This document shows, in pieces, positions 36,334 through 51,398 of a stretch of DNA of 51,398 nt; position 1 is the stretch's first letter; each line of letters starts with the position of its first letter. The notes beneath the pieces were generated by a model. The model worked only from the letters and a program-made list of their open reading frames with translations, made no database searches and was not told where the DNA came from. The stretch comes from an uncultured Arenicella sp. Its GTDB lineage: Bacteria; Pseudomonadota; Gammaproteobacteria; Arenicellales; Arenicellaceae. The stretch spans positions 1 to 51,398 of the forward strand of contig CALKRK010000060.1 of assembly GCA_937989675.1 (NCBI GenBank). Direction: 5' to 3'. Position numbers and translations under genes: made by a program.

Positions 36334-36390
36334 ACGTTTGCTAAAACGAAAATTGAATCACTAGACTGATACGACACAGGCTGTTAGACC

Positions 36391-37053
36391 TTACAAATCA
36401 GTGTCATCGTTTGTTTTTTCAATCGTTAAACAATACTCTGATAAGGTTGTAAACGACTCCGATACATCGCCAATGAATTCATCGGCACTTCCCTTGTGAG
36501 CAATCTGGTTACCGATAATCACATCACAGTTAAACGGTACCAGTAGCGCTTCACCTTTAGGAAGTGCGCGCCCCAAGCCGTGCAACATAACCGGTGTAAC
36601 GGTCGTGTCGGGGCGGCCTTTCAACAAAAAATAGACACCTTTTTTAAGATCGCTCATGCGCTCCGGCTCACCTCGACTGCCTTCGGGGAACAAGATCAAT
36701 ACATTACCGTTATCCAATGCAGATTGGCAACCATCAAACAGTGCGTCACGCTCGGTCTTACCACTTCTATCCATCGGAATAATACCAATGCATTTTTGCG
36801 ATAGCCAAGCCATAAAGCCGCCCTTCTCTACAAAGTAATCTGCTGCCGCAACCGGCCTCACTTTATGAATCATCGAGAGCGGATATAAGCTCATTAGTAC
36901 CATGGTATCGAGATGGCTATTATGATTTGCCACAATCACCGCAGGCCCTTGCTTGGGCAAGTTATCGCGCCCTCGAATATTTAGCCCCAACACGATAAAT
37001 ACAACCGGCTTAATAAATAGAGCAAAGAAAACTATTTTTAGAAATCTTTTCAT
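36391..37053 (-). CDS. 1-acyl-glycerol-3-phosphate acyltransferase-like protein (PlsC family)
   Basis: This 220-residue membrane-associated acyltransferase shows the four PlsC motifs: NHNSHLDTM (H44-x4-D49), GIIPMDRSGK, FPEGSRGEPERM and PVMLHGLGRALPKG. Family members add a second acyl chain to lysophosphatidic acid. It has an N-terminal hydrophobic helix. AAGGTGAT precedes the start. It lies 48 bases after a CdsA-type gene and a CDP-alcohol phosphatidyltransferase, so its product probably feeds a dedicated lipid made by this operon; a housekeeping role is less likely because another acyltransferase is at the right end of the window. Confidence 0.87.
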   Translation of the reverse strand: MKRFLKIVFFALFIKPVVFIVLGLNIRGRDNLPKQGPAVIVANHNSHLDTMVLMSLYPLSMIHKVRPVAAADYFVEKGGFMAWLSQKCIGIIPMDRSGKTERDALFDGCQSALDNGNVLILFPEGSRGEPERMSDLKKGVYFLLKGRPDTTVTPVMLHGLGRALPKGEALLVPFNCDVIIGNQIAHKGSADEFIGDVSESFTTLSEYCLTIEKTNDDTDL

Positions 37054-37101
37054 ATCACATCACCTTGGATGGGTTTCATCATTGAGTAAGTCAAAGCTAG
37101 C

Positions 37102-38034
37102 CTAGTAATGAAGATAATAGACGTAGTGAAAAAACAGCGGCGCGGTGTAAGTCAGGCTATCTAAGCGGTCTAGCACCCCACCATGGCCTGGGATTAAATT
37201 ACCACTGTCTTTAATTTGCAGGTCTCGTTTTACCGAAGAAATAACCACATCACCAATAAACCCACTAAAACCGATCAATGCCCCAGCGCCCGCTCCCTGC
37301 AGAAAACTGAGTGGCGTTAACAGTGGCGCAACCAAACTGGCGCAAACCGTAATCGTAAAAAAACCGCCAAGAAACCCTTCCCAAGTTTTATTTGGGCTGA
37401 CTTTAGGAATGATTTTATGTTTACCAAATTTTTTACCCCAAACGTATTGGCAAACGTCGTTGAACTGCGTCATAAACAGAATAAACAACACCAAGCCCAT
37501 ATAGCCTGCAGCTTCGTTTTTAACTGGCAATACCATTAAAAAGGCAATATGGCTGATACTAAAAATCGATAACATCGTGGTCCAAGTCAAAACACCAGCA
37601 GACCGAATAAAGCCACGGGTTTCCCCAACTAGCACCATGCGCATGGGCAATATCAAAACAAGAAAGATAGGAACGAAGATAATAAACATCCCATACCATT
37701 CAACATAAACCCAAAAGTACTGTACTGGAATGGCTGCGTAAGCCCAGAAAATTGCACGCCGATCCGTCATGCGCGTGGGCACTATCGATAAAAATTCTTT
37801 CAGCATCAAGAAGCTGAGAAAAGCAAAAAAGGTAATGGCAACGCCTTTACTGGCCAGCAAGACAGTAAACAAGATACCAATCATTACCCACCACGACTGA
37901 ATACGCTGCCGCAGCTCTGTGTAATCCGAATCAGGATTACGCACAGTGAACATAAAGCTGACACCTGAGGCAATTAACAAAAGCACAAAAACCGTGCCCA
38001 TCAGGTAGAGAGAGTTTTGCGGTATGGACATCAT
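37102..38034 (-). CDS. Phosphatidate cytidylyltransferase (CdsA family)
   Basis: The enzyme makes CDP-diacylglycerol from phosphatidate and CTP in the membrane. The 310 residues contain about eight helices and the complete CDS signature near residues 265-295: SVKRDLQIKDSG, then HGG-x-LDRLDSL. The KVSPNKTWEGFLGG block precedes it. Starts at 38037 (GTG), 38034 or 38031 are adjacent; 38034 has GAGG at a good distance. The upstream gene stops directly before it, so translation is coupled. Being next to a CDP-alcohol phosphatidyltransferase, it supplies that enzyme's CDP-lipid. Confidence 0.92.
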   Translation of the reverse strand: MMSIPQNSLYLMGTVFVLLLIASGVSFMFTVRNPDSDYTELRQRIQSWWVMIGILFTVLLASKGVAITFFAFLSFLMLKEFLSIVPTRMTDRRAIFWAYAAIPVQYFWVYVEWYGMFIIFVPIFLVLILPMRMVLVGETRGFIRSAGVLTWTTMLSIFSISHIAFLMVLPVKNEAAGYMGLVLFILFMTQFNDVCQYVWGKKFGKHKIIPKVSPNKTWEGFLGGFFTITVCASLVAPLLTPLSFLQGAGAGALIGFSGFIGDVVISSVKRDLQIKDSGNLIPGHGGVLDRLDSLTYTAPLFFHYVYYLHY

Positions 38035-38037
38035 CAC

Positions 38038-38748
38038 TTAGGCCTCGTTGGTTTCGTGTTGAGCTTCCAGAAAGATATACGCATTTCGGGTGCGACGAAA
38101 GATCGTAAAAAGGCAACCGATAACAATACACGCGAGCGCCAATGCAAATGTAATATCCGCACTCCATAGCCATGCTTGCAATGCTGCAACAACACAAGCC
38201 ACCGTCATTAAGGCCATTCGATGTTGCTTTGCCATTGGCCCACTAAAATCGACAGGTGCACCGATACTCGCCGATAATGTTCTAACATAAGCGGTCATTA
38301 CCGCCAGCACTCCCGCTGCCCAGCCTAGCGATGAAGCCCAACCGAACGAGCTAACAGCATACCCAGCCGCAATAAGAATAAGCGGATCAGCAATGCGGTC
38401 AGGTATGTCATTAAACAACTCACCAGACGGCGTACCCTTACCACCCTCAACCGCCACCATTCCGTCGAACAAATTACACAGTAGGCGCGCCTGAATAAAC
38501 AAGGCAGCTAGTAGCGGCAATAAGCAATTGCTCACACCACCTTCTATAGGATTCGACAATAAAGGTAATAATACTAGGCAAATGGCTGCCAGTGCGGCAA
38601 AGCCGACGCTCGCGATTGATATTTGGTTTGGTGTCACTTGTTTTTCACTCAACCACTTTGCTGCTTTACCTGCGAATCCAGCTTGCCTGACTTTCAATGG
38701 CCGTCGACCATCCATCTCGTCGATAGCTTCTTCGTGTTTAGAATTCAT
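38038..38748 (-). CDS. CDP-alcohol phosphatidyltransferase family protein with a divergent active-site motif
   Basis: This 236-residue polytopic protein should transfer a phosphatidyl group from CDP-DAG to an alcohol. The canonical signature is D-x2-D-G-x2-A-R-x8-G-x3-D-x3-D. Here it reads N92-x2-D95-G96-x2-A99-V100-x8-G109-x3-N113-x3-D117, so two metal-binding Asp are Asn and the Arg is Val. Spacing is otherwise exact, so it is the true motif position. From memory, a proteobacterial subfamily shows the same NLFDGMVAVEGG pattern, so this is probably a fixed variant, not a broken gene. AGAGGA precedes the start. Confidence 0.83.
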   Translation of the reverse strand: MNSKHEEAIDEMDGRRPLKVRQAGFAGKAAKWLSEKQVTPNQISIASVGFAALAAICLVLLPLLSNPIEGGVSNCLLPLLAALFIQARLLCNLFDGMVAVEGGKGTPSGELFNDIPDRIADPLILIAAGYAVSSFGWASSLGWAAGVLAVMTAYVRTLSASIGAPVDFSGPMAKQHRMALMTVACVVAALQAWLWSADITFALALACIVIGCLFTIFRRTRNAYIFLEAQHETNEA

Positions 38749-38761
38749 CTAAGTGTTTCCT

Positions 38762-39190
38762 CTAGTCCTTAGCAGCGCGGCTATCAACAGCAGCGTGCAA
38801 CTTGTAAGTAGTAAATACACAAAATAAAAATGCCACACTCAACGGTGGCACAACGGTTCGAATAATATCTGGCGTTTGCGCAAACCAGTGCAGGGTGACA
38901 ATACAACTACCGGTCAGTGCAACCGTTAGCAGAGCTGGCACAATTAGCAACCCTGGGATTAACGGCAAACGTTGGTAAACTCGAGTGACAATGCGCACCA
39001 TTATCAACGTGATAACCGCACTCGCTGCACCTTGAATCAAACCCGACTTCACACCAACAGATGCACCATTGGGTTGATTCACGTAATAGGCCCAGGCGCC
39101 CCACATCACAAATGCAAGCAAAGCCGAAACCAAGTTAAACAAGCTGCTTGTCGATTTGATAGAACCTGCTTTTTCTGAGTGCTCTTTCAT
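38762..39190 (-). CDS. Small integral membrane protein, unknown function
   Basis: I do not recognise this 142-residue protein. It contains four hydrophobic helices (about 18-37, 50-66, 78-102, 110-130) and short charged ends. The start lies 13-14 bases from nothing but a promoter-like gap, and the stop is 13 bases before the CDP-alcohol phosphatidyltransferase start, so it is the first gene of the lipid operon. Its role may be to assist the enzymes in the membrane; this is inference from position only. Confidence 0.7.
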   Translation of the reverse strand: MKEHSEKAGSIKSTSSLFNLVSALLAFVMWGAWAYYVNQPNGASVGVKSGLIQGAASAVITLIMVRIVTRVYQRLPLIPGLLIVPALLTVALTGSCIVTLHWFAQTPDIIRTVVPPLSVAFLFCVFTTYKLHAAVDSRAAKD

Positions 39191-39505
39191 ACGCGCGTAA
39201 ATTACCTTTATCTTAAAACATCACTGTCTTCGCTAGTCAGTCTCCATTGTAGCAAGGCGCTCTGCAAACGGAAAATATGAAGTCGCATATATCTATCCGG
39301 CTAGTGCAACTTAACTGTACTTGCACAAGTAGCTAGACTTATAGAATTAGCTTGTCTGTTCAGTCATTAAGTATTGCCCATAGCGCTGCGCCTCTAACTA
39401 GGAAATAAGGCCGCCCTCATCCATAATTTCCTGCGGCGGTTTACATCTCATGAGCGCCCTTAACATCCGGCTGCAATAGGCCACCATTTTTATATTAATT
39501 AATTT
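39191..39505. other. Intergenic region upstream of the lipid operon
   Basis: This 315-base stretch follows the MocR gene end. It holds the inverted repeat GTGCAA/TTGCAC (39304-39309 with 39321-39326, 11-base spacer) and GGAAAT/ATTTCC arms near 39400-39433. Promoters for the lipid operon must lie here, but no convincing -35/-10 pair or terminator was found. Confidence 0.5.
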
Positions 39506-40909
39506 TCAAAGCACCACGTTGGTAAGATGTAGGGGATGCTCGAAAATATCTGCGACCAGCTTAAGAGACTCTTCGCACTCACGACGTGATAATGAACCAC
39601 CAAGACCGATCCGTATAGAATTAGTTGGATTGTTGTTAGTGCAAAACGCAGCACTTGATACGGCGTTCACACCATTTTCTCGCAAATGCGCGGCAAACAC
39701 GGATGGATTCATCTCAATTTTCTTGGGCAAATCTAGCCATAGGTGAAAAACGTCTGGGTTGTTGTCTGCAATAAAATCTGAGAGGTGCTCTTTGGCACAG
39801 GCTTGCCGAATCGCGGTTTCATTTTTAATACCCTCGATTACCTCCCATAGCGTGCCGTCGTAAATCCAGTCGGTTGCAAGCGCGTTTGTAATCGGGCTGG
39901 CCATTACAGACAATGCCCGCAATGCCCCAGCGGCGCGCTGAGCAAGTAAATTGCTTGGTGCATACAGGTAAGCCGTTCTCAAGCCTGCACCAAAGCATTT
40001 GGAAAAACCAGTAATATAGTATGTGAGCTCAGGGGCGAAGCTCGCTATTGGAGGTATTGCTTTATCGATCAGCAGTGCGTAGGGGTCGTCTTCAATGATT
40101 GGCACACTATAGTGGGTAGACAGTTCCGCAATCGCTTGGCGCCGATTAATGCTAATGGTCCGCGTGGTGGGATTTTGCAGTGTTGGATTCAAGTAAATCG
40201 CCGCGACAGATTGAGTGCTTAATAAGGCTTTCATTTCGTTGATAATCGGCCCGTCTTCGTCGCTGCTGATTGCCGTGAGCGTGACACCTAGTTGGGCGGC
40301 AATTGCTTTCATCCCCGGATAAATCAGACTTTCAACACAAACCGTGGAACCTCGAGCAGCTAACAATGACGTAAGGCCAACGAGCGCACTGTGAATGCCC
40401 GGACACACCAATACTTGCTCGGCCTGCGGCTTGTCAATCAACGTCTCCAGAAATTTAACTCCAGCGTTACGTGCATTATCAGAGCCGCCAAAGTCCTGAT
40501 ATCGGAACATCGCATGTAGGTCGTGTTTTCGACTTAACATTTCTATGCCAGAGTTTATTTTTTTCGAGAGCAATGCCAACTTTGGCTCGGGTGGCAAGTT
40601 CATCGTCATTTCAAAATTGCTACCACCTTGCAATGTCATGGTTTTGGCTCGGCCTTTTACAAAAGAGCCTGAACCTGGATTCGACTCGATCAATCCTTGA
40701 TTACGTGCTTCCTTATAAGCTCTAACTACGGTGGTGTAATCAAGCTCTAAGAACTTTGCTAGCTCCCGAATAGTCGGCAGTCTTTCTCTAGGTTTTAGTA
40801 AGCCGAGATCAATATCGTCTGAAATTATCTCAGGGATAAGTAGGTAGGCGGGTCGTTTTTCGTTGGCCGCTAACTCAGATAGCCAATGTTTGAATTTTGA
40901 CATATCCAT
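39506..40909 (-). CDS. MocR/PdxR-like transcriptional regulator (GntR wHTH fused to aminotransferase domain)
   Basis: The 467-residue regulator has a GntR winged helix (about 10-85) with RLPTIRELAKFLELDYTTVV and GLIESNPGSGSFV. A class I aminotransferase-like domain (about 110-460) follows. It has the cofactor site: YLNPTLQNPTTRTIS, IIEDDPYALL with the Asp, and GFSKCFGAGLRTAY with the PLP lysine near residue 300, all apparently intact. GGGAGA six bases upstream fixes the ATG at 40909. It is divergent from the Nit1C genes across 411 bases. PLP or an amino compound would be the expected effector. Control of Nit1C is inferred from position. Confidence 0.87.
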   Translation of the reverse strand: MDMSKFKHWLSELAANEKRPAYLLIPEIISDDIDLGLLKPRERLPTIRELAKFLELDYTTVVRAYKEARNQGLIESNPGSGSFVKGRAKTMTLQGGSNFEMTMNLPPEPKLALLSKKINSGIEMLSRKHDLHAMFRYQDFGGSDNARNAGVKFLETLIDKPQAEQVLVCPGIHSALVGLTSLLAARGSTVCVESLIYPGMKAIAAQLGVTLTAISSDEDGPIINEMKALLSTQSVAAIYLNPTLQNPTTRTISINRRQAIAELSTHYSVPIIEDDPYALLIDKAIPPIASFAPELTYYITGFSKCFGAGLRTAYLYAPSNLLAQRAAGALRALSVMASPITNALATDWIYDGTLWEVIEGIKNETAIRQACAKEHLSDFIADNNPDVFHLWLDLPKKIEMNPSVFAAHLRENGVNAVSSAAFCTNNNPTNSIRIGLGGSLSRRECEESLKLVADIFEHPLHLTNVVL

Positions 40910-41004
40910 AAACTATCTCCCGATCAACGGCTCCAAATTTGCTGCATTAATGCTCTTAATAAGCACGATTCATGCCAACGCTACAGATGCTGAGGTTGAA
41001 AATG

Positions 41005-41199
41005 TTGATTGCATATTCAGCTCTTCATTGATTGGATGTGGCGCGCTAATTGTGTGCACCATGACGCAACAATAGTGCATAAATTGGTTGATGTCTAAGT
41101 TAGATAAATTCTTATCGGACGCATATCTAGGGGAAAAAAAATATTTTTTCACTTTCTCATCAATGATCAACCAAGTTTGATTGCCTGTTGATTGGATGC
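41005..41199 (+). promoter_or_regulatory. Four TTGATTG repeats upstream of the Nit1C promoter
   Basis: TTGATTG occurs at 41005-41011, 41028-41034, 41178-41184 and 41189-41195. The 2nd and 4th extend to TTGATTGGATG. The last two are 11 bases apart, about one helical turn, and end just before the -24 box of the sigma-54 element. Direct repeats of this kind fit binding of the divergent MocR regulator, or of an activator protein. The region 40910-41320 contains nothing coding. Confidence 0.45.
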
Positions 41200-41214
41200 T
41201 CGCGAAACGCAGTT

Positions 41215-41230
41215 GGCACGACGCTTGCTC
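41215..41230 (+). promoter_or_regulatory. Sigma-54 type promoter of the Nit1C operon
   Basis: TGGCAC-N5-TTGCT matches the -24/-12 consensus (TGGCAC-N5-TTGCW) at every defined base, with GG and GC dinucleotides at the exact spacing. Transcription would start near 41241, about 80 bases before the first Nit1C gene. Sigma-54 promoters often serve nitrogen metabolism. They need an AAA+ activator, and none is encoded in this window. Confidence 0.75.
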
Positions 41231-41320
41231 TTTTAATCATGACTGGTAGGCGGTTACTGCGAATTCATTACGAGTAGCCGCATCAGGAATTCACTAACAT
41301 TTATTATTGAGGAAACATCA

Positions 41321-41803
41321 ATGCCACAGGTTACTACTGCGAAACACAAAGACGGCGATTTTTTTGTCGATTACGAAGAAAAATTATTTGAGGATGTTCA
41401 AGCTAAGGAAGGCGAGAAGGCCTTGGTTACCTTTCATGCGGTTGCCTTTGAAGGTTCGATTGGTTTAGTGAATATGCTGCAAGCAACTCGGCTGCAACGT
41501 AAAGGGTATGAAACCTCAATCTTATTGTACGGCCCAGGCGTTACCTTAGGCATACAACGTGGTTTTCCAACCTTGGGCGACGAGGCATTTCCAGGTCATC
41601 AAAATTACGCAAATCAGCTAAAAAAATTCATGTCTGAGGGCGGTAAGGTCTATGCCTGTCGTTTCGCATTACAAGCTCTGTACGGCCATGGCGAGCCATC
41701 GCTGGTTGAGGGAGTTCAGCCAATTAGCCCACTAGATGTGTTGGACATCAAGTTGCTGCATACACGCGACAACGCCTTTATCATCGACACTTGGACGATG
41801 TAA
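41321..41803 (+). CDS. MSMEG_0572/Sll0783 family nitrogen-starvation response protein
   Basis: This 160-residue protein is the first gene of the Nit1C cluster. It matches the Sll0783-type family in length and conserved parts: [36 protein letters not shown], and [18 protein letters not shown]. The biochemical role of the family is not known; in Synechocystis, loss of sll0783 affects polyhydroxybutyrate build-up under nitrogen starvation. The nitrilase gene follows after 12 bases. GAGG precedes the start. Confidence 0.87.
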
Positions 41804-41815
41804 ATCAAACACATT

Positions 41816-42835
41816 ATGTCTGATTCCAGAATCGTTCGCGTCGCTGCTGCTCAGCTTTCTCCCAGTTTAGAGAAAGCTAGCAGTACGCTCGACAAAGTAC
41901 TTGGAGCAATCGACGACGCAGCCCAACGGAGTGCTCAACTGATTGTCTTTCCGGAAACGTTTGTTCCTTATTATCCCTATTTCTCGTTTGTGTCTACGCC
42001 AATGCAAAGTGGCAAAGAACATATGCGGTTGTACAGCGAAGCAGTATTAGTGCCAGGCCCGATTACTGACGCGGTCAGCCAACGAGCCAAAGATAAGGGT
42101 ATTGCGGTTGTGCTAGGCGTTAACGAGCGGGATCGGGGTTCACTTTACAACACCCAATTAGTGTTCGACGTTGACGGGCACCTACTGTTAAAACGCCGAA
42201 AGATCACGCCAACCTTTCATGAGCGAATGATCTGGGGTCAGGGCGACGCGTCTGGTTTAAAAGTGGTTGAGAGTCAAATAGGGCGAATCGGTGCTTTAGC
42301 CTGTTGGGAGCACTACAACCCGTTAGCACGTTATGCCTTAATGACTCAACATGAAGAAATTCATTGCAGCCAGTTTCCGGGGTCTCTGGTTGGCCCAATT
42401 TTTGGTGATCAAATTGAAGTCACCATTCGACATCATGCCTTGGAATCAGGTTGTTTTGTAGTCAATTCGACCGGCTGGTTAAGCGACCAACAAATTGAAT
42501 CCATTACTCTCGATGAAACCCTTCAAAAAGGGTTGCGACACGGCTGCATGACCGCCATTGTTTCTCCAGAAGGCGCACATCTGTGCGAACCTCTCACTCA
42601 AGGCGAGGGGATTCTAGTCGCGGACTTAGATATGTCACTCATTACAAAGCGCAAACGCATGATGGATTCGGTTGGCCACTACGCTCGGCCAGAATTGTTA
42701 TCGCTGATGATGAATGACAAGCCAATGGTGTATCGAGAAGTAAATAGAAATAGCGCTTCTCAATCTCAATGTGATTTCGCAACCCCAAATGAAAAAACTA
42801 ATGTGCCTCATGACACACAACTAACAGAACAGTGA
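41816..42835 (+). CDS. Nit1C nitrilase (Nit6803-like)
   Basis: A 339-residue carbon-nitrogen hydrolase of the nitrilase type, converting nitriles to acid and ammonia. The catalytic triad is intact: Glu47 in FPETFVPYY, Lys129 in KRRKITPT and Cys163 in [10 protein letters not shown]. Cluster nitrilases of this kind (Nit6803, NitC) accept small nitriles; in Pseudomonas fluorescens NCIMB 11764 the cluster supports cyanide assimilation. The last 40 residues, beyond the domain, are weakly conserved. It lies in the cluster order of Synechocystis sll0783-sll0787. The cyanide role in this organism is inference. Confidence 0.93.
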
Positions 42836-42845
42836 GAAAATAGAG

Positions 42846-43961
42846 ATGAACTACGTGACTGGCTCTAAACGAAAGCTGTTAACCGATATTCAAACGCAAG
42901 GCATTCGCCTGGCGCATCGCGAGCAAGACCATCTAAGCCGCCGCGGCGGTGCTGGGCCATCAGATCATCAAGCAATTGTGATCGACGGCACACCTGTGAT
43001 GGTACCAGTGCACACCCAATCAGTAATCGACTCTCCTTATAGTTTAGAAGACACAGACCATGGCAAAGCTAATCTCTTACTAAATGGTATCCCTGTAGTC
43101 GATGTATCATTTGCCAAAGATCCAAAGTTCTACAAATTACAAACGCAAGACGGTATCCCATACTCTAAGATTGCCACTTTGCACAGCACGGATGTACTTG
43201 CAACGACTGTGCTGCAAACCTGCATTCGCTACGAAACTCGTAAACAGACCTGCAAATTTTGTGCCATTGGCCAATCACTCGCCGCCGACCGCACAATTGC
43301 GCGCAAGTCTCCACAACAGCTGGCGGAAGTGGCTAAGGCAGCCGTTGAACTGGATGGCGTAAAACACATGGTCATGACCACCGGAACCACTGCCAGCTCG
43401 GACCGTGGCGCGAAAATACTCTGCGACAGCGTGTTAGCGGTAAAAGCCGCAGTTGACCTGCCGATACAAGTTCAGTGCGAACCGCCAGAAGATTTAGGGT
43501 GGCTCCAACGTTTAAAAAATGCAGGTGCAGACGCGCTAGGCATGCACCTTGAGGCCGTGAGCTCACACGTGCGAAAACAAGTCATGCCAAGTAAAGCATC
43601 GATCACTGTTGATGAGTATATGCGGGCGTTTGAAGTAGCCGTTCCAATCTTTGGCTGGGCGCAAGTTAGCACTTATATTCTGGCAGGTTTGGGTGATAGT
43701 CGAGAATCGATTCTATCGGTGTGCGAACGCCTAACCAACATTGGGGTTTATCCCTTTGTAGTGCCGTTTGTGCCGATCCGCGGCACTCCAATGGAAGACC
43801 ATCAACCGCCAAGTTCGGAATTTATGCAATCAATTCTAGCGCCACTCGGCGACATGCTCACCCAGATGAATATTCACTCAAGCGATGTCAAAGCGGGTTG
43901 CGCGCGCTGCGGCGCTTGCTCGTCGCTAAGCCGCTACGAGCGCAATGATGCGCCTCTTTGA
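42846..43961 (+). CDS. MSMEG_0568/Sll0785 family radical SAM protein
   Basis: The 371-residue protein is the Nit1C radical SAM enzyme. Its likely cluster-binding cysteines are C126, C136 and C139 (TCIRYETRKQTCKFCAIG). This gives C-x9-C-x2-C, not the canonical C-x3-C-x2-C. The biotin-synthase-like core follows, with MVMTTGTTASSDRG, VQCEPPEDLGWL and GMHLEAVSSHVRKQVMP. The C-terminus has a second Cys group, C352-x2-C355-x2-C358 (GCARCGACSS). No product is established. Gaps to neighbours are 10 and 67 bases. Confidence 0.9.
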   Translation: MNYVTGSKRKLLTDIQTQGIRLAHREQDHLSRRGGAGPSDHQAIVIDGTPVMVPVHTQSVIDSPYSLEDTDHGKANLLLNGIPVVDVSFAKDPKFYKLQTQDGIPYSKIATLHSTDVLATTVLQTCIRYETRKQTCKFCAIGQSLAADRTIARKSPQQLAEVAKAAVELDGVKHMVMTTGTTASSDRGAKILCDSVLAVKAAVDLPIQVQCEPPEDLGWLQRLKNAGADALGMHLEAVSSHVRKQVMPSKASITVDEYMRAFEVAVPIFGWAQVSTYILAGLGDSRESILSVCERLTNIGVYPFVVPFVPIRGTPMEDHQPPSSEFMQSILAPLGDMLTQMNIHSSDVKAGCARCGACSSLSRYERNDAPL

Positions 43962-44028
43962 ACACTTTTGAAAATTGAAATAACAAACTACTAGACAATC
44001 ACGGTCAATAAGAGAGACAGCATCAAAT

Positions 44029-44646
44029 ATGGCAAGCCAATACCCTTATTCTGATTACACCATTAAATGGGCCACTTCTCAGTGGGAAGTGGATCAAGCT
44101 CGCACGCTCAGGCGACGCGTTTTCTGCGAAGAACAAGGCTTATTCGATACTGATGACACTGATTTGATTGACGATTATGCGCAATGCTTGATCGCCATTG
44201 CTAACCACGGTTGTTGGCACGACAAGGTGGTAGGTACGGTTCGCATTCACGACGAAGGTGGCCATGTTTGGTGGGGCTCTCGGCTCGCAGTCGACACAAG
44301 TTTTCGCACTCATATAGGCTTAGGCTCAGCACTAATTAAACTAGCCGTATCAAGCGCTCACGCCAAAGGGTGTCAGCAATTTTTGGCGCAGGTTCAGAAA
44401 CGAAATGAAGGCTTATTTCAACGCCTGAACTGGCAGAGCCGCTTTGAACTCATGATTCACGATCACCCGCATGTGATGATGGAGGCCGAGCTGTCGATGT
44501 TCCCGCCCAATCATCAACCACAAAAAGGCTTCGTGTTGCGCGAGAAGCTAGATCAATACAACCATGAAGTGGCACCCGCATTATTAGCTCGATTCAGTGA
44601 ACGCTTTCTATCGATTCCACCTTTGGCCAATGGCGGGCACGGGTAA
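44029..44646 (+). CDS. MSMEG_0567/Sll0786 family GNAT acetyltransferase
   Basis: This 205-residue protein is a GNAT-fold acetyltransferase. Motif-like parts are ARTLRRRVFCEEQGLF (about 26-41), VVGTVRIHDE (about 67) and the acetyl-CoA-binding RTHIGLGSALIKLAVSSA (about 96-113). Acetylation of a metabolite with acetyl-CoA is the expected reaction; the substrate is unknown. In Mycobacterium the corresponding MSMEG_0567 fuses this domain with the AIR-synthase-like one; here they are separate, with the next ATG directly after the stop codon. Confidence 0.88.
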   Translation: MASQYPYSDYTIKWATSQWEVDQARTLRRRVFCEEQGLFDTDDTDLIDDYAQCLIAIANHGCWHDKVVGTVRIHDEGGHVWWGSRLAVDTSFRTHIGLGSALIKLAVSSAHAKGCQQFLAQVQKRNEGLFQRLNWQSRFELMIHDHPHVMMEAELSMFPPNHQPQKGFVLREKLDQYNHEVAPALLARFSERFLSIPPLANGGHG

Positions 44647-45651
44647 ATGACGCTCGAGTTAAAACAACTTTTGGACGATGTGAAACAACGATCGGGCATT
44701 CAGCAAAAAGTTGAAATACAAACGGTAGCTCGCGCTCTTAAAGCCGCCTTGCCAAATCCAAATTTTCCGAACGGCGACGATGCGGCCGTAATCGTGCGAC
44801 CAGATGGCTATGATTTGATTGCCGGAGAAGGGTTTATTTCTAAGTTCGTAGAAACCGACCCATGGTTTGCAGGTTGGTGTGGCGTAATGGTGAACGTCAG
44901 CGATATCGCAGCGATGGGCGGTCGCCCGTGTGCGGTTACCAATACCTTGTGGGGTTACGATGTCGAGCTTTGCGAGCAAATTTTGGCCGGAATGGCTGCC
45001 GCGTCTAGTATTTTCAATGTGCCGATTGTCGGCGGCCATACCAACCTGCGCAGTGCCAACACACAGTTCGGCGCCTCAATTTTTGGTCGAGCTAATGCCC
45101 TGCTGAGTAGTTTTTCAGCGCAAGCAGATCATGTATTGGTTGCCGCAATTGATTTGCGCGGCGAGTTCCGTAAACCCTTTTTAAATTGGAATGCAGCGAC
45201 CACCGCGCCACCAGATCGCTTGCGTGGTGACGTTGAACTACTCGCAAACATAGCCGAACAACGGTGGGCGCACTCGGCCAAAGACATCAGTCAAGCGGGC
45301 TTACTAGGCACGTGCCTGATGTTGCTCGAAAGCTCACAAGTCGGCGCTAACATTGATCTCAAACGCATCCCTAAGCCAAACAACGTTGAGTGGATTGATT
45401 GGCTATGTTGCTTTCCAAGCTTCGGCTATTTGCTCACGACTCCTCGTAGCAAGTTGGACGGCCTGTTACAGGCGTTTGACGCTCGGAACATCAGCGCTGC
45501 AGACATCGGCTACATCACCACTGATAAATTGGTATGTATCGAGCATGAGCTACAGACGGAGCTATTTTGGAACATCGCAACTACGCCGGTTACGGGCATG
45601 ACATCGCTCAACAACGATTTAACCACTCAGCAAAAGGTGGCTCATGCCTGA
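44647..45651 (+). CDS. MSMEG_0567/Sll0787 family AIR synthase-related protein
   Basis: The 334-residue protein belongs to the PurM/AIR synthase-like ATP-dependent fold. NGDDAAVIVRPDGYDLIAGEG (about 42-62) and VNVSDIAAMGGRP (about 84-96) hold the acidic metal- and ATP-binding residues, and VGGHTNLRS follows. The C-terminal domain shows DISQAGLLGTCLMLL. Such proteins phosphorylate or cyclise small N-containing metabolites, but the Nit1C reaction is not known. It starts one base after the GNAT stop and overlaps the next gene by 8 bases. Confidence 0.88.
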   Translation: MTLELKQLLDDVKQRSGIQQKVEIQTVARALKAALPNPNFPNGDDAAVIVRPDGYDLIAGEGFISKFVETDPWFAGWCGVMVNVSDIAAMGGRPCAVTNTLWGYDVELCEQILAGMAAASSIFNVPIVGGHTNLRSANTQFGASIFGRANALLSSFSAQADHVLVAAIDLRGEFRKPFLNWNAATTAPPDRLRGDVELLANIAEQRWAHSAKDISQAGLLGTCLMLLESSQVGANIDLKRIPKPNNVEWIDWLCCFPSFGYLLTTPRSKLDGLLQAFDARNISAADIGYITTDKLVCIEHELQTELFWNIATTPVTGMTSLNNDLTTQQKVAHA

Positions 45652-45928
45652 ACGATATTTTGATGTGCGGTGGCCAGACGATCATCAAGAAAGCTGTTAC
45701 TCACCCTCAAGCAGCATAGAACAGTACTTTTCAGCGGGCCAGCAATACCCGCTTGACCAGTTCGTGGCATTGTCAGACCAAGCGCTTAAGCAAGCGAGTG
45801 AGCGGGTTCGACAAAAATACGGTTACGCATGTTCTAGTGCGATGGATCAACTAAGCCAAATTAAGCAACGCGCAACGCGCTATAAAAACATGACTGACCC
45901 ACAGGTTTTGGTAGTACGTATTTCCTAG
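45644..45928 (+). CDS. MSMEG_0570 family nitrogen-starvation response protein
   Basis: A 94-residue small protein: MPERYFDVRWPDDHQESCYS and YFSAGQQYPLDQFVALSDQA are the conserved parts of the MSMEG_0570 family. Its role is unknown; it has no signal peptide or membrane segment. It overlaps the AIR-synthase-like gene by 8 bases, which implies coupled translation. The flavoprotein gene begins 37 bases later. Confidence 0.87.
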   Translation: MPERYFDVRWPDDHQESCYSPSSSIEQYFSAGQQYPLDQFVALSDQALKQASERVRQKYGYACSSAMDQLSQIKQRATRYKNMTDPQVLVVRIS

Positions 45929-45965
45929 CCCAAACATAAAACAAGTTTCTCTAATCGGTAGTCTT

Positions 45966-47243
45966 ATGCAAACATCTAATATTAATTCCCAACAAACGCA
46001 TTACTCGGTTGTGATCGTTGGCGGAGGCCAAGCCGGCTTGTCAATGAGCTACTATCTGCAAGCCAACCAAATTGATCATCTAGTAGTTGAAAAGGGCGGC
46101 ATCATGAATGCATGGAAGGAAAAACGTTGGGATTCCTTCACCTTGGTCACGCCAAATTGGCAGTGTCAGCTTCCTGGTCACCCCTATGCGGGGGACGATC
46201 CAGATGGTTTTATGACCAAAAACCAAATTATCGATTACCTCGATGACTTTGCTGAAAAAGTGAACCCACCCATTCGACTTAACACCTCGGTGAATCGCGT
46301 TAACGACGACCGAGGTGTTTACCACATTGATACCTCGTCGGGTAGGTTAACGGCCGATCAAGTTGTGATTGCTTCTGGCAGCTATCCAGTGCCGATCATT
46401 CCGCGCATGGCGGAAAAAATACCATCGAACGTTCAGCAATTGCATTCTGAGCAGTATAAAAATGCTGACCAACTTAAGAGCGGAGCGGTTTTGGTCGTTG
46501 GTTCTGGCCAGTCAGGCGCGCAGATCGCAGAAGATTTACATTTGTCCGGGCGCAAAGTTCATTTAGCGACAGGCGACTCACCACGTTGCGCGCGCTTTTA
46601 CCGTGGGCGCGATGTGGTCGATTGGCTCAACCAGATGAATTATTACAAAATGCCTGTGCAAGAACACCCCCTGCGCGAGGGTGTGCGCGATAACAGTAAC
46701 CACTATGTCACTGGCCGCGATGGTGGTCGAGACATCGACCTACGCGTATTCGCCAAGCAAGGAATGGAATTGTATGGCTTTATGAACGACCTTGTGGGCG
46801 ATGAACTCTGCTTCACCCCGAACTTAGTTGCCAACCTCAACAAAGCCGATCAGAGTTATAACAATATTAATCGCAAGATCGACCAGTTCATTGTCCAAAA
46901 CAATATCGATGCGCCTGAGCAAACCGAATACCAAGCGGTTTGGGAACCAAGCTGCGAACGAGAACGTTTATCACTCAGCGAATCTGGCATTACTAGTATT
47001 GTATGGTGTATTGGCTTTCAGCCCGACTACAGTTGGATTGATGTGCCTGTCTTTAATGGTCGTGGCTACCCACAACATCAGCGTGGCATTACAGAGAAAA
47101 AAGGGCTCTATTTTCTTGGCTTGCCTTGGCAGCACACATGGGGGTCAGCACGCTTTTCTGGAATCTCGCAAGACGCTCAGTATATTAGCGAAGCGATTCT
47201 ATTGTCACATAGAGAAAGTAACCAAGCGCAGATTCGTGCTTAA
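45966..47243 (+). CDS. MSMEG_0569 family flavin-dependent oxidoreductase
   Basis: A 425-residue FAD/NAD(P)H-dependent monooxygenase-like enzyme. The FAD site is VVIVGGGQAGLSMSYYL (about 14-30). KEKRWDSFTLVTPNW matches flavin monooxygenases near residue 51. The second Rossmann motif, VLVVGSGQSGAQIAEDL (about 175-191), binds NADPH. The C-terminal VWCIGFQPDYSWIDVP and GLYFLGLPWQHTWGSARFSG finish the fold. It is the last of the seven cluster genes. Oxidation of an N-containing substrate is likely, but the identity is unknown. Confidence 0.9.
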   Translation: MQTSNINSQQTHYSVVIVGGGQAGLSMSYYLQANQIDHLVVEKGGIMNAWKEKRWDSFTLVTPNWQCQLPGHPYAGDDPDGFMTKNQIIDYLDDFAEKVNPPIRLNTSVNRVNDDRGVYHIDTSSGRLTADQVVIASGSYPVPIIPRMAEKIPSNVQQLHSEQYKNADQLKSGAVLVVGSGQSGAQIAEDLHLSGRKVHLATGDSPRCARFYRGRDVVDWLNQMNYYKMPVQEHPLREGVRDNSNHYVTGRDGGRDIDLRVFAKQGMELYGFMNDLVGDELCFTPNLVANLNKADQSYNNINRKIDQFIVQNNIDAPEQTEYQAVWEPSCERERLSLSESGITSIVWCIGFQPDYSWIDVPVFNGRGYPQHQRGITEKKGLYFLGLPWQHTWGSARFSGISQDAQYISEAILLSHRESNQAQIRA

Positions 47244-47538
47244 CACTGGATGAGTGGTAGATAAGGCTATTACTTCGCTCCCGCCCCGTTAACCGAAAAA
47301 ATGTATTCTCACCGAGACCTTTGCATAAATGTTTTTTAAAGGCCTCACGCTGTCTGTCAACTTCACGCTTTAGCTGAGCTACATAAATTGGGAAGGTGAA
47401 TGTTAACTAAACGATTGGCTTCAAGTTAATCACTTAGGAGAAAGCCCAAATTCCCGTGAGGTTATATACGCTATAGGTATAAAACCTTCATCGAGATAGA
47501 TATTTTGACCATATAGCGCAATGAAAAATATGCACAAG
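47244..47538. other. Convergent intergenic region after the Nit1C cluster
   Basis: Convergent gene ends leave 295 bases. GAGACCTTTGCATAAAT near 47311 resembles the tips of some IS5-like elements, with AAAGGCCTC close by as an imperfect inverse. No second end, transposase or terminator is visible, so a mobile remnant is only possible. The rest shows nothing supportable. Confidence 0.35.
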
Positions 47539-48543
47539 CTACCCCGGATCGATCTCTGCCCCAACCTTCCGTTTAAGCAGCCCGTAAAAGGCTTGCTCAG
47601 CTGTGCGTCGCCCGGCGATCACTTCGTGTACATCCATAGCGATCGGCATTTCTACATTATAGCGCTCGGCTAACTTTATTACCGTTGGCGAGCTTTTGAC
47701 TCCTTCCGCAACCATCACCATGTCCTGGATGATCTCGTCAATATGCCGGCCTTTGCCTAACTCGACACCAACATGGTGATTTCGGCTTTGTGGGCTAATA
47801 CAGGTCGCTAACATGTCGCCCATGCCGGTTAAACCGGAAAACGTTTCCGCGCGCCCACCAAGCGCTACACCAAGGCGAGTCACCTCAGCTAAACCGCGTA
47901 CTATTAGTGCTGAACGAGTGTTATCGCCCGCACCCAAACCAATGCCCATGCCCACCGCAATGGCGATGATATTTTTTAATACGCCACCCAATTCGCAGCC
48001 AACGACATCATCATTGGTATAAACGCGAAACACACCACTGTTAAATACTTTTTGCAATTCTCTGACGATGATTTCATCGTCCATTGCAATAACGCTCGCG
48101 GCAGCTTGCCCAGCCATAATCTCACGTGCAAGATTTGGGCCTGTTAGCACACCAACGGGGTGGCCCGGCAGTTCGCTTTCAATAACCTGAGTCATTCTCA
48201 GGTCGGTACCTTTTTCCAAACCTTTGGTCAAACTCACCACTGGCACCCAAGCACGCAAATGTGGTTTTAGCTGTTTCAGAACTTCTCGAAAAGAATTGGA
48301 TGGCACTCCCATGACCAAGACATCGGCGTCCGCCACTACCGCTTCGAGTTCTTGATGTGCAACTAGATTTTCGGGCAGTACCGCATCAGGGAGATACTTA
48401 GAATTGGTATGCTGTGTATTAATTTCCTTTACAGTTTCCGCGCTGCGAGCCCACAGCGACACATCGGTGTTCTTGGCAATCAACGACGCAACCGTTGTGC
48501 CCCATGAGCCACCACCAATCAAACCCACTTTTAGTCTATGCAT
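47539..48543 (-). CDS. gpsA: Glycerol-3-phosphate dehydrogenase [NAD(P)+]
   Basis: GpsA reduces dihydroxyacetone phosphate to glycerol-3-phosphate, the backbone for phospholipids. The 334 residues fit the family. The dinucleotide motif GLIGGGSWGTTVA (about 8-20), SLTKGLEKGT, LTGPNLAREI, the substrate-binding CELGGVLKNIIAIAVGM with Lys near 193, and GAGDNTRSALI are all present. It lies 31 bases downstream of plsB, which uses its product, so a functional operon is likely. Confidence 0.95.
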   Translation of the reverse strand: MHRLKVGLIGGGSWGTTVASLIAKNTDVSLWARSAETVKEINTQHTNSKYLPDAVLPENLVAHQELEAVVADADVLVMGVPSNSFREVLKQLKPHLRAWVPVVSLTKGLEKGTDLRMTQVIESELPGHPVGVLTGPNLAREIMAGQAAASVIAMDDEIIVRELQKVFNSGVFRVYTNDDVVGCELGGVLKNIIAIAVGMGIGLGAGDNTRSALIVRGLAEVTRLGVALGGRAETFSGLTGMGDMLATCISPQSRNHHVGVELGKGRHIDEIIQDMVMVAEGVKSSPTVIKLAERYNVEMPIAMDVHEVIAGRRTAEQAFYGLLKRKVGAEIDPG

Positions 48544-48574
48544 TATTATTCTCCGCTGTCGGATTTTATCGCGG

Positions 48575-50896
48575 TCAGTCTAGATCATTTGGCATGGCAA
48601 GTGCACGTATTTGTTCAATACGATGCGAAAGCACACGAAAATCTCGGCTGATTTGCTTGCGGCGTTCGACTATTTCAGCACCGCCACTGTCAACAACGCC
48701 ATAACTATCAAGTAACTTGCGCCCATTCGAAAATAAAATTTGCCCGATAGACGCCTTACTGCTTATGCGCCGCTGTAAATACGCTTGCCGACCATATCTG
48801 AAGGACGCGGACAGCATCGCCTTTTCATCCAGCGTCTCGCCCTCGCCTAAACGTGCAAATACGTCAGCCACAATTCGGTAAGCTTCAACGTAGGGCTTCA
48901 AACAACAATGCGCGACCAATGGTTTCATCGAACGAAGAAGCTGTGCAAGATAGTCTTTATCCGCGGACTCAGGTTTACCAATTTTAGCTTCCCATTCAGA
49001 ATCATATTGAGTTAACTCAGCTTTAATCTGCTCATGAAATTCATCAGTAGGTGCGTAGAAAAATTCGAATTTAAACATGTCTTTCAGGCGATCAGCCTCA
49101 CGCCAAAAGGCGCCCAGAGCATCGCCAGGTTCCGTAGCTGCCTCTACCAAGCTTAGTTCGGCTATTGCCTTTGAGATAAAGTGGTGAACAATCGTATTAC
49201 GATAATAGCTCGCCATCACCTGCTGTTCGGCTGCCACAGCGTAAACAGTTTCTGGGCCCTCGTCGTAACGATTGATTAACTCAGCGCTTACCATATTATC
49301 AATCAAATCAAGCATCTGCGTTTCATTAGCGTCGTCAAAGTCACTGGTGAAACGAATATCGCGATGTTTTGACCATTCGCGCAAAGCGCTCATATTCTCG
49401 CCGAGTTCGGCGATTGTTTGAGCGCGCGGGGCAGCGCCCAATAATGACAAAGACATCAACGCGGTGAGCGTTATTGGGGTAACTCGGTTTGCCTCAACGC
49501 CAACCTGGAAAGCCGTTTTCTGCAATGCCAATGGGTCATCGTTAAACGCCGATTTATTTACCACCACAGGCTCACCAAAGTCCACATAAATTCGGCCAAG
49601 CGGTTGCCGCATTCGCCTTAGGTATGAAATAAACCAACTCAGTGATTCTGGCCTTTTAATGCCACCACCCTGCTCTGCCGCATAATCCTTAACATCGTTA
49701 TTCATATCGTAGTTGATCGCGACGGGAATAATGTGCAAACCATCTGCACTGGAATCTTGAATAGCATCCATGACGTATTTCAACATTCCATAACGCGGCG
49801 GCATCAATTTGCCAACACGTGAGCGCGTGCCTTCAAACGACCAAGTCAGCGGGAAACGTTTTTCCAATAAATACGCTAGATAGTTTCGCAGTACCAACTT
49901 ATACAGTGGGTTGTCTTGAAATGAGCGACGAATAAAAATGGCACCTGAACGGCGAGCTAAAAAACCAACGCCAGCGAACGCCATATTTATGCCCCCCATC
50001 GTGTGGGGTGGCGGAAAGTCATTTTCGAACAGCACAGATTGCATGGTAATGCCATCCATATGGGTTTTGTGTGTCCACAGCAAAGCCGTCGGGTGCTCTC
50101 GAACAATGGAGCGATAGCCTTCAAGTTTGTCGGTATCAATAACAAGTTTGTTTTGATAGCCGAGCGAGATTACCCAGCGGTTGAACGCGCCTGCGACATC
50201 TTGCCAAAAGTTGTGCGGTAACGCGACCAGTTCCTTAAAATATGGCAATGCCCGCTGTCGTAATTCCTGCTCACTATCGCCGGTTTGCTCAACGATTTCT
50301 TGTAAGCCACGCCGATAACGATCACTGGCTCTTACCTGCTTAGACACTTGGCGCGGCACCTTATAACGGCTTCCGCGCAGTCTGCGTTCAGCAACCTCTA
50401 GAGCTAAGCTCGCTTGCTCCGCGACGTATTCAGCTAACTCGGCGTCGATCTCGGCAATGGCTCGCCGCTGTTCATAGCGCTCGCTTAAATCTGCAATGGT
50501 GGCGGGCTTACCTAGAATGCATAACGCTCTAGACGGGTCTGCATCCAATATTCGTTGAGCTTGGCGTTGGCTTGGGCGGCGAGGGTTGCCGCGCAACAGA
50601 TCTCGCACTCTTGGTTTGCCATCGACTTTATCAAACTTGGTTTTCCACACGACCCGCACTGGCGCCACCAAAGTATCATCAGACACCTGCAAGGCCATTT
50701 GCAAGCCTTCGGTCGGAATATCTTCCGGGTCGTGAGCAATAGGCACTACACAATGGCTTACCGCACCATCAAACCCATGCTGCGACTTACTTTCGTTTAA
50801 CCACTCTAGCAGCAACCGCTCCTCAACTTGATGTGCTGCATCAATAATAAACAGAACTTGTTTAGAGTCTATGCGTTGCCAGGGGTTCGTTGTCAT
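48575..50896 (-). CDS. plsB: Glycerol-3-phosphate 1-O-acyltransferase (PlsB-like)
   Basis: The 773-residue enzyme puts the first acyl chain on glycerol-3-phosphate at the inner membrane. HX4D is seen as WTHKTHMDG (H about 276, D about 281). GGINMAFAGVGFLARRSGAIFIRR follows; its glycerophosphate-binding EGTRSR (about 355) is EGTRSRVGKLMPP here, closer to actinobacterial PlsB than to the E. coli EGGRSR. An N-terminal 200-residue region is usual for PlsB-sized proteins. The ATG at 50896 follows GAGG; an adjacent TTG at 50899 is less likely. The partial acyltransferase gene ends 21 bases upstream. Confidence 0.88.
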   Translation of the reverse strand: MTTNPWQRIDSKQVLFIIDAAHQVEERLLLEWLNESKSQHGFDGAVSHCVVPIAHDPEDIPTEGLQMALQVSDDTLVAPVRVVWKTKFDKVDGKPRVRDLLRGNPRRPSQRQAQRILDADPSRALCILGKPATIADLSERYEQRRAIAEIDAELAEYVAEQASLALEVAERRLRGSRYKVPRQVSKQVRASDRYRRGLQEIVEQTGDSEQELRQRALPYFKELVALPHNFWQDVAGAFNRWVISLGYQNKLVIDTDKLEGYRSIVREHPTALLWTHKTHMDGITMQSVLFENDFPPPHTMGGINMAFAGVGFLARRSGAIFIRRSFQDNPLYKLVLRNYLAYLLEKRFPLTWSFEGTRSRVGKLMPPRYGMLKYVMDAIQDSSADGLHIIPVAINYDMNNDVKDYAAEQGGGIKRPESLSWFISYLRRMRQPLGRIYVDFGEPVVVNKSAFNDDPLALQKTAFQVGVEANRVTPITLTALMSLSLLGAAPRAQTIAELGENMSALREWSKHRDIRFTSDFDDANETQMLDLIDNMVSAELINRYDEGPETVYAVAAEQQVMASYYRNTIVHHFISKAIAELSLVEAATEPGDALGAFWREADRLKDMFKFEFFYAPTDEFHEQIKAELTQYDSEWEAKIGKPESADKDYLAQLLRSMKPLVAHCCLKPYVEAYRIVADVFARLGEGETLDEKAMLSASFRYGRQAYLQRRISSKASIGQILFSNGRKLLDSYGVVDSGGAEIVERRKQISRDFRVLSHRIEQIRALAMPNDLD

Positions 50897-50917
50897 CAAG
50901 CCTCGTGTATTAAAGAG

Positions 50918-51398
50918 TTACGATTCATCCAGAGTGCGCGCTGACACCTTAGGCGAGGTCGTTTTACGTGCCCGTCGCCTAGTAGTTCGTTTAGGTTGAG
51001 TTGTCTTTTTCGTTTTGAGCGGCGTAACCAGCTTGTCTGATTTACTTTTAGTGTTAGAATTCTTCGGTTTCGTTGCCTTGCTCTTAGCCGTAACGGCCGC
51101 ACTCACAAGCTTCACCGATTGTTTTGTCGCAGTTACTCGTTTCTTAGTCTGTGACTTCCTTACCTTAGATTTCTTAGTCGTTTCCTCGGCTTTCTTACGA
51201 CTTTGCGCGCGCGCTTTTATAGCTCTCTCAGCGGCTAAACGACTTTCTTCACGGCTAGGTTGAAACTGCATCTGATCTAACTCAACCAGAAACATATCTC
51301 GCACTTCTTCGACGTGTTTATTCATCGTTGTCGCTTTCCAATCACTGGTATCAACGGCAGGCAATACCGTCACCTTAACGGTGGCAGGCCTAAGCACA
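50918..51398 (-). CDS. Acyltransferase (PlsC-type) C-terminal part with lysine-rich tail, 5' truncated
   Basis: The frame is open to the right edge, so the N-terminus and catalytic part lie outside. The first visible residues (RPATVKVTVLPAVDTSDW, then EEVRDMFLVELDQ) match the end of 1-acylglycerol-3-phosphate acyltransferases, including HAD-IB/PlsC fusions. About 110 further residues are Lys/Arg/Thr/Ser-rich with KKS, KPK and TKK runs and no hydrophobic core, resembling histone H1 or AlgP tails. It ends 21 bases before plsB, so it is a lipid-synthesis neighbour. The tail may bind acidic lipid heads or nucleic acid; that is inference. Confidence 0.7.
   Translation of the reverse strand, partial: VLRPATVKVTVLPAVDTSDWKATTMNKHVEEVRDMFLVELDQMQFQPSREESRLAAERAIKARAQSRKKAEETTKKSKVRKSQTKKRVTATKQSVKLVSAAVTAKSKATKPKNSNTKSKSDKLVTPLKTKKTTQPKRTTRRRARKTTSPKVSARTLDES

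Follow-up and report, generated by a model that had tools for sequence, protein, structure and literature searches.

A MocR-type regulator and operator-like boxes at a predicted sigma-54 promoter accompany a Nit1C cluster in an uncultured Arenicella

The DNA analyzed here is a stretch of 51,398 nucleotides (hereafter the window; contig CALKRK010000060.1, positions 1 to 51,398 of the forward strand, assembly GCA_937989675.1) from an uncultured Arenicella sp., and our subject is its Nit1C gene cluster together with the regulator gene beside it. Seven genes in the order nitBCDEFGH, all on the + strand and separated by short gaps, encode an MSMEG_0572/Sll0783 family protein (nitB, 41321..41803), a Nit6803-family nitrilase (nitC, 41816..42835), a radical SAM protein (nitD, 42846..43961), a GNAT acetyltransferase (nitE, 44029..44646), an sll0787 family aminoimidazole ribonucleotide (AIR) synthase-like protein (nitF, 44647..45651), an MSMEG_0570 family protein (nitG, 45644..45928), and an MSMEG_0569 family flavoprotein (nitH, 45966..47243). 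Membership was assigned when a protein scored above the curated cut-off of its NCBIfam model, as is the case for NitB (TIGR04044, 280.7 bits, cut-off 109.85), NitC (TIGR04048, 555 bits, cut-off 502.6), NitD (TIGR04043, 568.8 bits, cut-off 303.7), NitE (TIGR04045, 200.8 bits, cut-off 68.45), NitF (TIGR04049, 394.6 bits, cut-off 321.3), NitG (TIGR04042, 122.9 bits, cut-off 79.85), and NitH (TIGR04046, 646.5 bits, cut-off 498.35). A preliminary description drawn from the sequence alone had recognized seven consecutive Nit1C genes in the known order, and the models bear this out, also for the small MSMEG_0570 and MSMEG_0572 proteins, whose failure to match had been named beforehand as the result that would speak against it. 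It was likewise right that the MSMEG_0565-type glycosyltransferase is absent: nitE and nitF abut, and because nitF and nitG overlap by 8 bp, there is no room for a glycosyltransferase gene between the latter two. The window cluster is an ordinary, complete, already known Nit1C, with the same seven families, in the order of the gamma versions, as in the 2005 account (PMC1199592) and in nitBCDEFGH of Pseudomonas pseudoalcaligenes CECT5344, as far as the cited passages go. Among the nearest loci, which are the best 80 of 450 relatives found in a survey covering Pseudomonadota, 75 have matches to all seven families; the gap between nitF and nitG is at most 900 bp in 39 of the 76 loci with both genes found and longer in 37, and 4 of the 80 loci could not be scored.

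Divergently from nitB, on the - strand (39506..40909), lies the gene for a regulator that we call NitR, a label coined in this analysis for the Nit1C-linked MocR. The gene falls just outside the interval (40910-47243) that the preliminary description delimited when it proposed a divergent PLP-binding (pyridoxal 5'-phosphate) MocR regulator at this position. The protein combines a GntR winged helix-turn-helix domain (Pfam, 1.5e-11) with a fold-type-I aminotransferase-like domain (Aminotran_1_2, 3.1e-18), the domain pair of MocR/GabR regulators. No NCBIfam cut-off was passed among the 25 matches listed of 35 families matched; the best listed was EhuR (NF052286), at 337.5 of the 480 bits needed. 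The structure model (predicted local distance difference test, pLDDT, 86) gave Foldseek matches that include fold-type-I aminotransferases, GabR, and PdxR. Across 18 MocRs, D274, K304, R311, and R433 are invariant and Y277 is kept in at least 90%, and these residues, which we take to hold PLP or the substrate carboxylate, fall in stretches that align with aminotransferases. The PLP site of NitR is thus predicted to be intact. Since these residues are kept, an amino-acid-like effector is plausible, and the earlier suggestion that an amino compound or the state of PLP is sensed would fit such a site; cyanide itself is a second candidate.

The 411-bp gap between nitR and nitB (40910-41320) contains several elements that the preliminary description did not mention. 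Two distal operator-like boxes, TTGATTGCAT (41005..41014) and TTGATTGGAT (41028..41037), and two proximal ones, TTGATTGCCT (41177..41186) and a second copy of TTGATTGGAT (41188..41197), all lie on the + strand; the proximal boxes are 11 bp apart from start to start, and the last of them ends 16 bp before the -24 part of a predicted sigma-54 promoter element, TGGCACGACGCTTGCT (41214..41229, + strand), which agrees with the consensus at 12/12 positions. The clusters of boxes flank an NtrC-type dyad, GCGC-N7-GTGC (41043..41057, no strand assigned), which differs by one mismatch from GCAC-N7-GTGC. Four boxes in the gap compare with a mean of 0.26 in shuffled sequences, and 0/5000 shuffles reached four. 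The sigma-54 element, by itself, is not rare in the window, since three were found with one mismatch allowed against 2.47 expected; two exact matches occur in the whole window, one of them here. The host genome encodes both NtrC (689.5 bits) and RpoN (432.6 bits), so that rpoN, ntrC, and a -24/-12 element, as looked for in a sigma-54/NtrC operon, are all present. The tandem-box pattern occurs in this genome (3.58 Mb, 80% complete) only at the two places described here, and NitR may therefore have a single target in it. An Rfam scan of 36000-51398 at the gathering threshold gave no match.

To what extent MocR regulators accompany Nit1C elsewhere can be judged from the nearest loci: a homologous MocR adjoins the cluster in 75/80, divergently in 69 and downstream of nitH in 6, and the rest comprise four cut contigs, where adjacency is not determinable, and one locus without a MocR (L003). 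As near relatives are over-represented among these loci, genomes were also drawn evenly, once across the phylum and once across the class. In the phylum draw, the radical SAM marker was present in 16/398 genomes (the host genome included) and a MocR, checked on the sequence, was adjacent in 15/16; in the class draw, the marker was present in 4/369 genomes, two of them already counted, and a MocR was adjacent in 3/4, the newcomers being G743, which has the MocR, and G537, which is without it. Both draws pooled, the MocR is adjacent in 16/18 distinct Nit1C genomes, again with the host genome included. The co-occurrence elsewhere that the preliminary description asked for is thus found, and in the relatives examined a MocR is usually the partner of Nit1C. 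One of the two genomes without an adjacent MocR, G250, has a divergent gene with PAS, sigma-54 activator, and Fis-type helix-turn-helix domains, a combination that places it in the NitA type; in the other, G537, the upstream gene encodes a PAS-GGDEF-EAL protein.

These regulators also group together. In a quick maximum-likelihood tree with a midpoint root (55 MocRs: 41 adjacent to Nit1C and 14 non-adjacent ones picked for high profile scores, two of which lie ~10 kb from Nit1C on the same contig), all 41 adjacent MocRs fell in one branch of 45 rows (Shimodaira-Hasegawa-like approximate likelihood ratio test, SH-aLRT, 84) with four non-adjacent ones nested in it, and the next branch out, which adds one further non-adjacent row, had an SH-aLRT of 99. 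The adjacency label changes 4 times on the tree, compared with 12.6 in shuffles. The four nested non-adjacent MocRs are most simply read as losses of Nit1C.

Several loci have peculiarities of their own. Agaribacter marinus carries a second Nit1C copy, L003 (8499-14053), which shares its contig with the MocR-bearing L005; L003 has a sigma-54 element and is without an adjacent MocR, boxes, or a nitG match. G167 (L155) and G211 (L161) each carry an additional and more distant MocR, which lies ~10 kb from the Nit1C-linked one and shares its contig. One in-frame TGA lies inside the radical SAM frame of G537 (L217, 5134-6195), and in two Halomonadaceae loci (L010 and L012, ~5756-6638) a second nitrilase-like gene, with 33% identity to nitC, is found just beyond the MocR.

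We then compared the DNA upstream of nitB, which could be cut for 93 of 96 loci and was reduced to a non-redundant set of 51 regions. A sigma-54 element (at least 10 of 12 consensus positions within 360 bp) is present in 47/51 of these, against a shuffle mean of 1.5 and maximum of 5, and, once near-copies and two loci lacking a MocR are counted as well, in 78/93 of all regions, where shuffles averaged 2.4 with a maximum of 7 and the reverse strand gave 8. A free expectation-maximization motif search of the upstream regions returned only AT-rich sequence, and boxes were collected by counting the core TTGATYGCA, a box being TTGATYGCAT or a sequence one mismatch away from it. This yielded 140 sites in 46/51 non-redundant regions, compared with a shuffle mean of 8.2 sites. 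Boxes reach 6.9 per kb upstream of nitB, whereas the nitD coding sequences from these 51 loci contain 8 in 55 kb, or 0.145 per kb. Between the end of the closest + box and the -24 element there are 15-16 bp in 22/41 non-redundant loci with both features and in 55/77 loci once near-copies and the window (16 bp) are included, mostly in gamma and beta proteobacteria. A GCAC-N7-GTGC dyad (at most one mismatch) at -380..-180 is present in 30/51 regions (shuffle mean 5.5, maximum 13), whereas nearer nitB it is present in only 8/51 (shuffle mean 4.6, maximum 10); with any other gap in the range 3 to 12 it was found in 3-10 regions, and the exact dyad occurs in 9/51 against a shuffle mean of 0.5.

Which gene do the boxes serve? 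In one alternative, the MocR regulates only itself and is a hitchhiking neighbor of a nit operon left to NtrC and sigma-54 alone. Autoregulation is common among transcription factors according to a general statement in the cited part of PMC5320631, and four phylum-draw genomes keep a high-scoring MocR of this clade without a match to the Nit1C radical SAM marker at the cut used (E 1e-80), which would suit a regulator that is independent of the cluster. However, in the six loci with the MocR gene beyond nitH, at least three boxes remain in front of nitB each time (6/6) and none is found within 450 bp upstream of the MocR gene itself; the spacing of the boxes is set from the nit promoter; and at the start of the four nested non-adjacent MocRs (L148-L151), where 600 bp were scanned, there are no boxes. 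We therefore regard purely self-directed control as very unlikely.

The boxes might instead belong to IHF (integration host factor) or another looping protein. The reverse complement of the box contains ATCAA, which we take to be part of the IHF consensus, the position of a box site between an enhancer and a sigma-54 promoter is presumably a typical one for IHF, and G743 has a MocR and no box within one mismatch. Against this, the base after the TTGATYGCA core is T at a frequency of 0.74 and the YAA element of IHF is not seen in the flanks, the boxes are arranged as 11-13 bp tandems, and the three loci without a MocR (L003, L154, and L217) have no boxes. Ranked low on the make-up of the flanks, IHF is a highly improbable owner. 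The boxes lie mostly on the + strand (119/140 sites), and their tandem spacings peak at 11 bp (16 times, with 13 bp 6 times and 12 bp 5 times), an arrangement that would fit the direct-repeat operators of the MocR/GabR subfamily; NitR is the protein that we would expect to bind them.

Taken together, these comparisons suggest a Nit1C module that has been acquired along with a dedicated NitR and is under dual control, with NtrC and sigma-54 conveying a starvation signal and NitR a specific one, and we consider this reading probable. Such a module would obtain nitrogen from cyanide or small nitriles and carry its PLP-dependent regulator along. The nit operon would be read from the sigma-54 promoter, and NtrC, acting from the enhancer-like dyad that the distal and proximal boxes flank, would make it respond to nitrogen starvation. 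NitR would occupy the tandem boxes, of which the proximal pair ends 16 bp before the -24 element, which would put it at about -43 to -63 relative to the predicted start, and the distal pair lies ~160 bp further up. Its gating of the promoter may depend on the reaction of its PLP with cyanide itself or with an amino compound derived from cyanide or a nitrile.

Several observations weigh against this reading. Five of the 51 non-redundant regions have a linked MocR and no box within one mismatch (L065, L077, L081, L163, and L166, from alphaproteobacteria or phylum genomes outside the class of the window), and G743, likewise without such a box, also has no sigma-54 element within two mismatches. 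The spacing of 15-16 bp is not kept in 19/41 non-redundant loci, and 9/140 box sites, spread over 8 loci, share positions with the sigma-54 element. The dyad in the window is mismatched in one half, and the fuller NtrC consensus TGCACYA-N3-TRGTGCA is rare, with 0/51 regions at up to one mismatch and 4/51 at up to two (14/51 at up to three, shuffle mean 2.7). Because the 51 regions share ancestry, the shuffles overstate their independence. In addition, the Nit1C of Pseudomonas is under another regulator, NitA, in the cited portion of PMC11049912, and G250 has such a gene.

Another alternative concerns whether NitR helps or blocks the promoter. As a classical repressor, NitR would keep the sigma-54 promoter closed, or form a loop from the distal to the proximal boxes, until an amino-acid inducer formed an external aldimine, as in EnuR with its sigma-70 promoter. 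EnuR (EhuR), the best listed NCBIfam match of NitR, is described as a repressor (PMC8739950), a MocR of P. pseudoalcaligenes is proposed to repress cio on data called unpublished there (PMC8567248), and two clusters of boxes would suit looping. On the other hand, the operators of EnuR overlap the core promoter in the cited sections (PMC8739950) and the boxes here mostly end 15-16 bp upstream, and the target gene of MpaR, a MocR of Pseudomonas aeruginosa, reportedly depends on this regulator for its expression during the cyanide response (PMC10790758). That the boxes prefer a certain distance from the polymerase site speaks for help or phasing rather than plain blocking, and we infer that NitR assists the promoter; shared descent could also preserve such a spacing, so that repression keeps a substantial, if minor, share of our expectation. 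A stronger version of assistance, in which NitR is a direct cyanide sensor whose PLP-cyanide form, sitting at a near-constant distance from the sigma-54 polymerase, lets NtrC fire the promoter, seems rather unlikely; it would make the MocR a co-activator in an AND gate of nitrogen starvation and cyanide across Pseudomonadota.

Nit1C and MocR regulators are both of known kinds, and the new part is the control of Nit1C. The passages cited from the 2005 Nit1C paper report no conservation beyond Nit1C and no conserved binding sites (PMC1199592). In P. pseudoalcaligenes, the regulator of Nit1C is the sigma-54 activator NitA, as stated in the part of PMC11049912 cited; in the window, by contrast, no divergent AAA+ sigma-54 activator lies beside nitB, and a MocR takes its place. 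MpaR resembles NitR, by description, in being a MocR-type regulator tied to cyanide. Its authors propose a PLP-cyanide adduct, and changing the lysine of its PLP site costs the protein its activity, with a tyrosine of that site mattering too, although the mutant proteins were less abundant. It differs in that its target is an oxidase subunit gene, with a promoter drawn with -35/-10 sites and the motif ATCTGAT (all from the cited text of PMC10790758). As regards kinship to MpaR, seven MocR regions in five genomes of family f17 were inspected by eye and no neighbor was recognized as ccoN; no family search was made on them. The ectoine regulator EnuR/EhuR, with PLP on Lys302, has the half-site ATTGT, which resembles the ATTGAT of the boxes, whereas its promoter is of the sigma-70 type and its operators are inverted repeats (cited sections of PMC8739950). 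The cio MocR is, by description, also tied to cyanide physiology and is divergent to cio, not to Nit1C (cited part of PMC8567248). In the literature searched, we found no account of Nit1C switched on by a MocR, nor any printed mention of the NitR clade, of its candidate operator, or of a sigma-54/NtrC promoter with a MocR; the main text of a 2016 survey of MocR regulons (PMC5320631) contains "nitril" 0 times, and its supplement or RegPrecise might list such a case.

The module looks horizontally acquired. The Nit1C marker was found in 0/60 relatives at E 1e-60, including 17 genomes of the same genus (completeness 75-100%), and it is this absence from the genus that makes the cluster look like an acquisition. 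A close MocR was found in 0/40 relatives (completeness 75-100%), where the best other match reached 162 bits compared with 1043 for NitR itself. In three relatives (L211, L212, and L215), gpsA stands beside resistance-nodulation-division (RND) pump genes with one small gene between them; at the same place the window has ~11 kb of accessory DNA (36391-47243), between the RND efflux pair and gpsA. The part from 36391 to 39190 is also present in G013, on a different contig from its gpsA. As G013 and G011 carry other genes at that place, it looks like an insertion hotspot. The radical SAM gene also occurs in 513 of 72,556 plasmid records, and in the two that we opened the MocR, boxes, and promoter all accompany it. 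Their regulator is annotated just as a PLP-dependent aminotransferase family protein, and under so generic a label the Nit1C-linked regulator is easily overlooked. On these two plasmids (L222 and L223), which are enterobacterial, a gene for an AMP-binding protein follows nitH.

As for what the cluster does, assimilation of cyanide or nitriles is reported for P. pseudoalcaligenes and would be carried over to the window by analogy. For the nitrilase NitC, the structure of a close relative has been solved (PDB 3wuy, 7.9e-145), and NitD had no match to PDB sequences at E 0.01. Its cysteines form CX9CX2C (C126, C136, and C139), a spacing that is presumably Elp3-like, and a C-terminal CX2CX2C (C352, C355, and C358), and all six are invariant in 81/81 aligned sequences. 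NitG is modeled very confidently (pLDDT 95) and its model matched no PDB fold (best E 0.55); two cysteines, C18 and C63, are invariant across 18 sequences. The radical SAM, GNAT, AIR synthase-like, and flavoprotein steps would have no place in a simple hydrolysis of nitriles, and sll0783 is tied to polyhydroxybutyrate accumulation under nitrogen starvation in the title of a reference in PMC9716671, both of which would suit a cluster that makes or modifies a nitrogen-containing product, with assimilation as a side activity. Given that nit1C is described as essential for growth of P. pseudoalcaligenes on cyanide and as cyanide-induced (in statements and reference titles, among them those of PMC8567248 and PMC9716671), we consider such a primary role unlikely.

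The unsolved Nit1C pathway can be approached through a PLP regulator whose candidate operator is clear, since the effector of a dedicated PLP regulator should be an intermediate or a signal of that pathway. The near-fixed distance between motif and promoter makes the switching-on of the nit genes directly testable. If the boxes are NitR's own, a MocR would sit at a sigma-54 promoter, and NitR would join MpaR and the cio MocR as the third of its kind with a link to cyanide.

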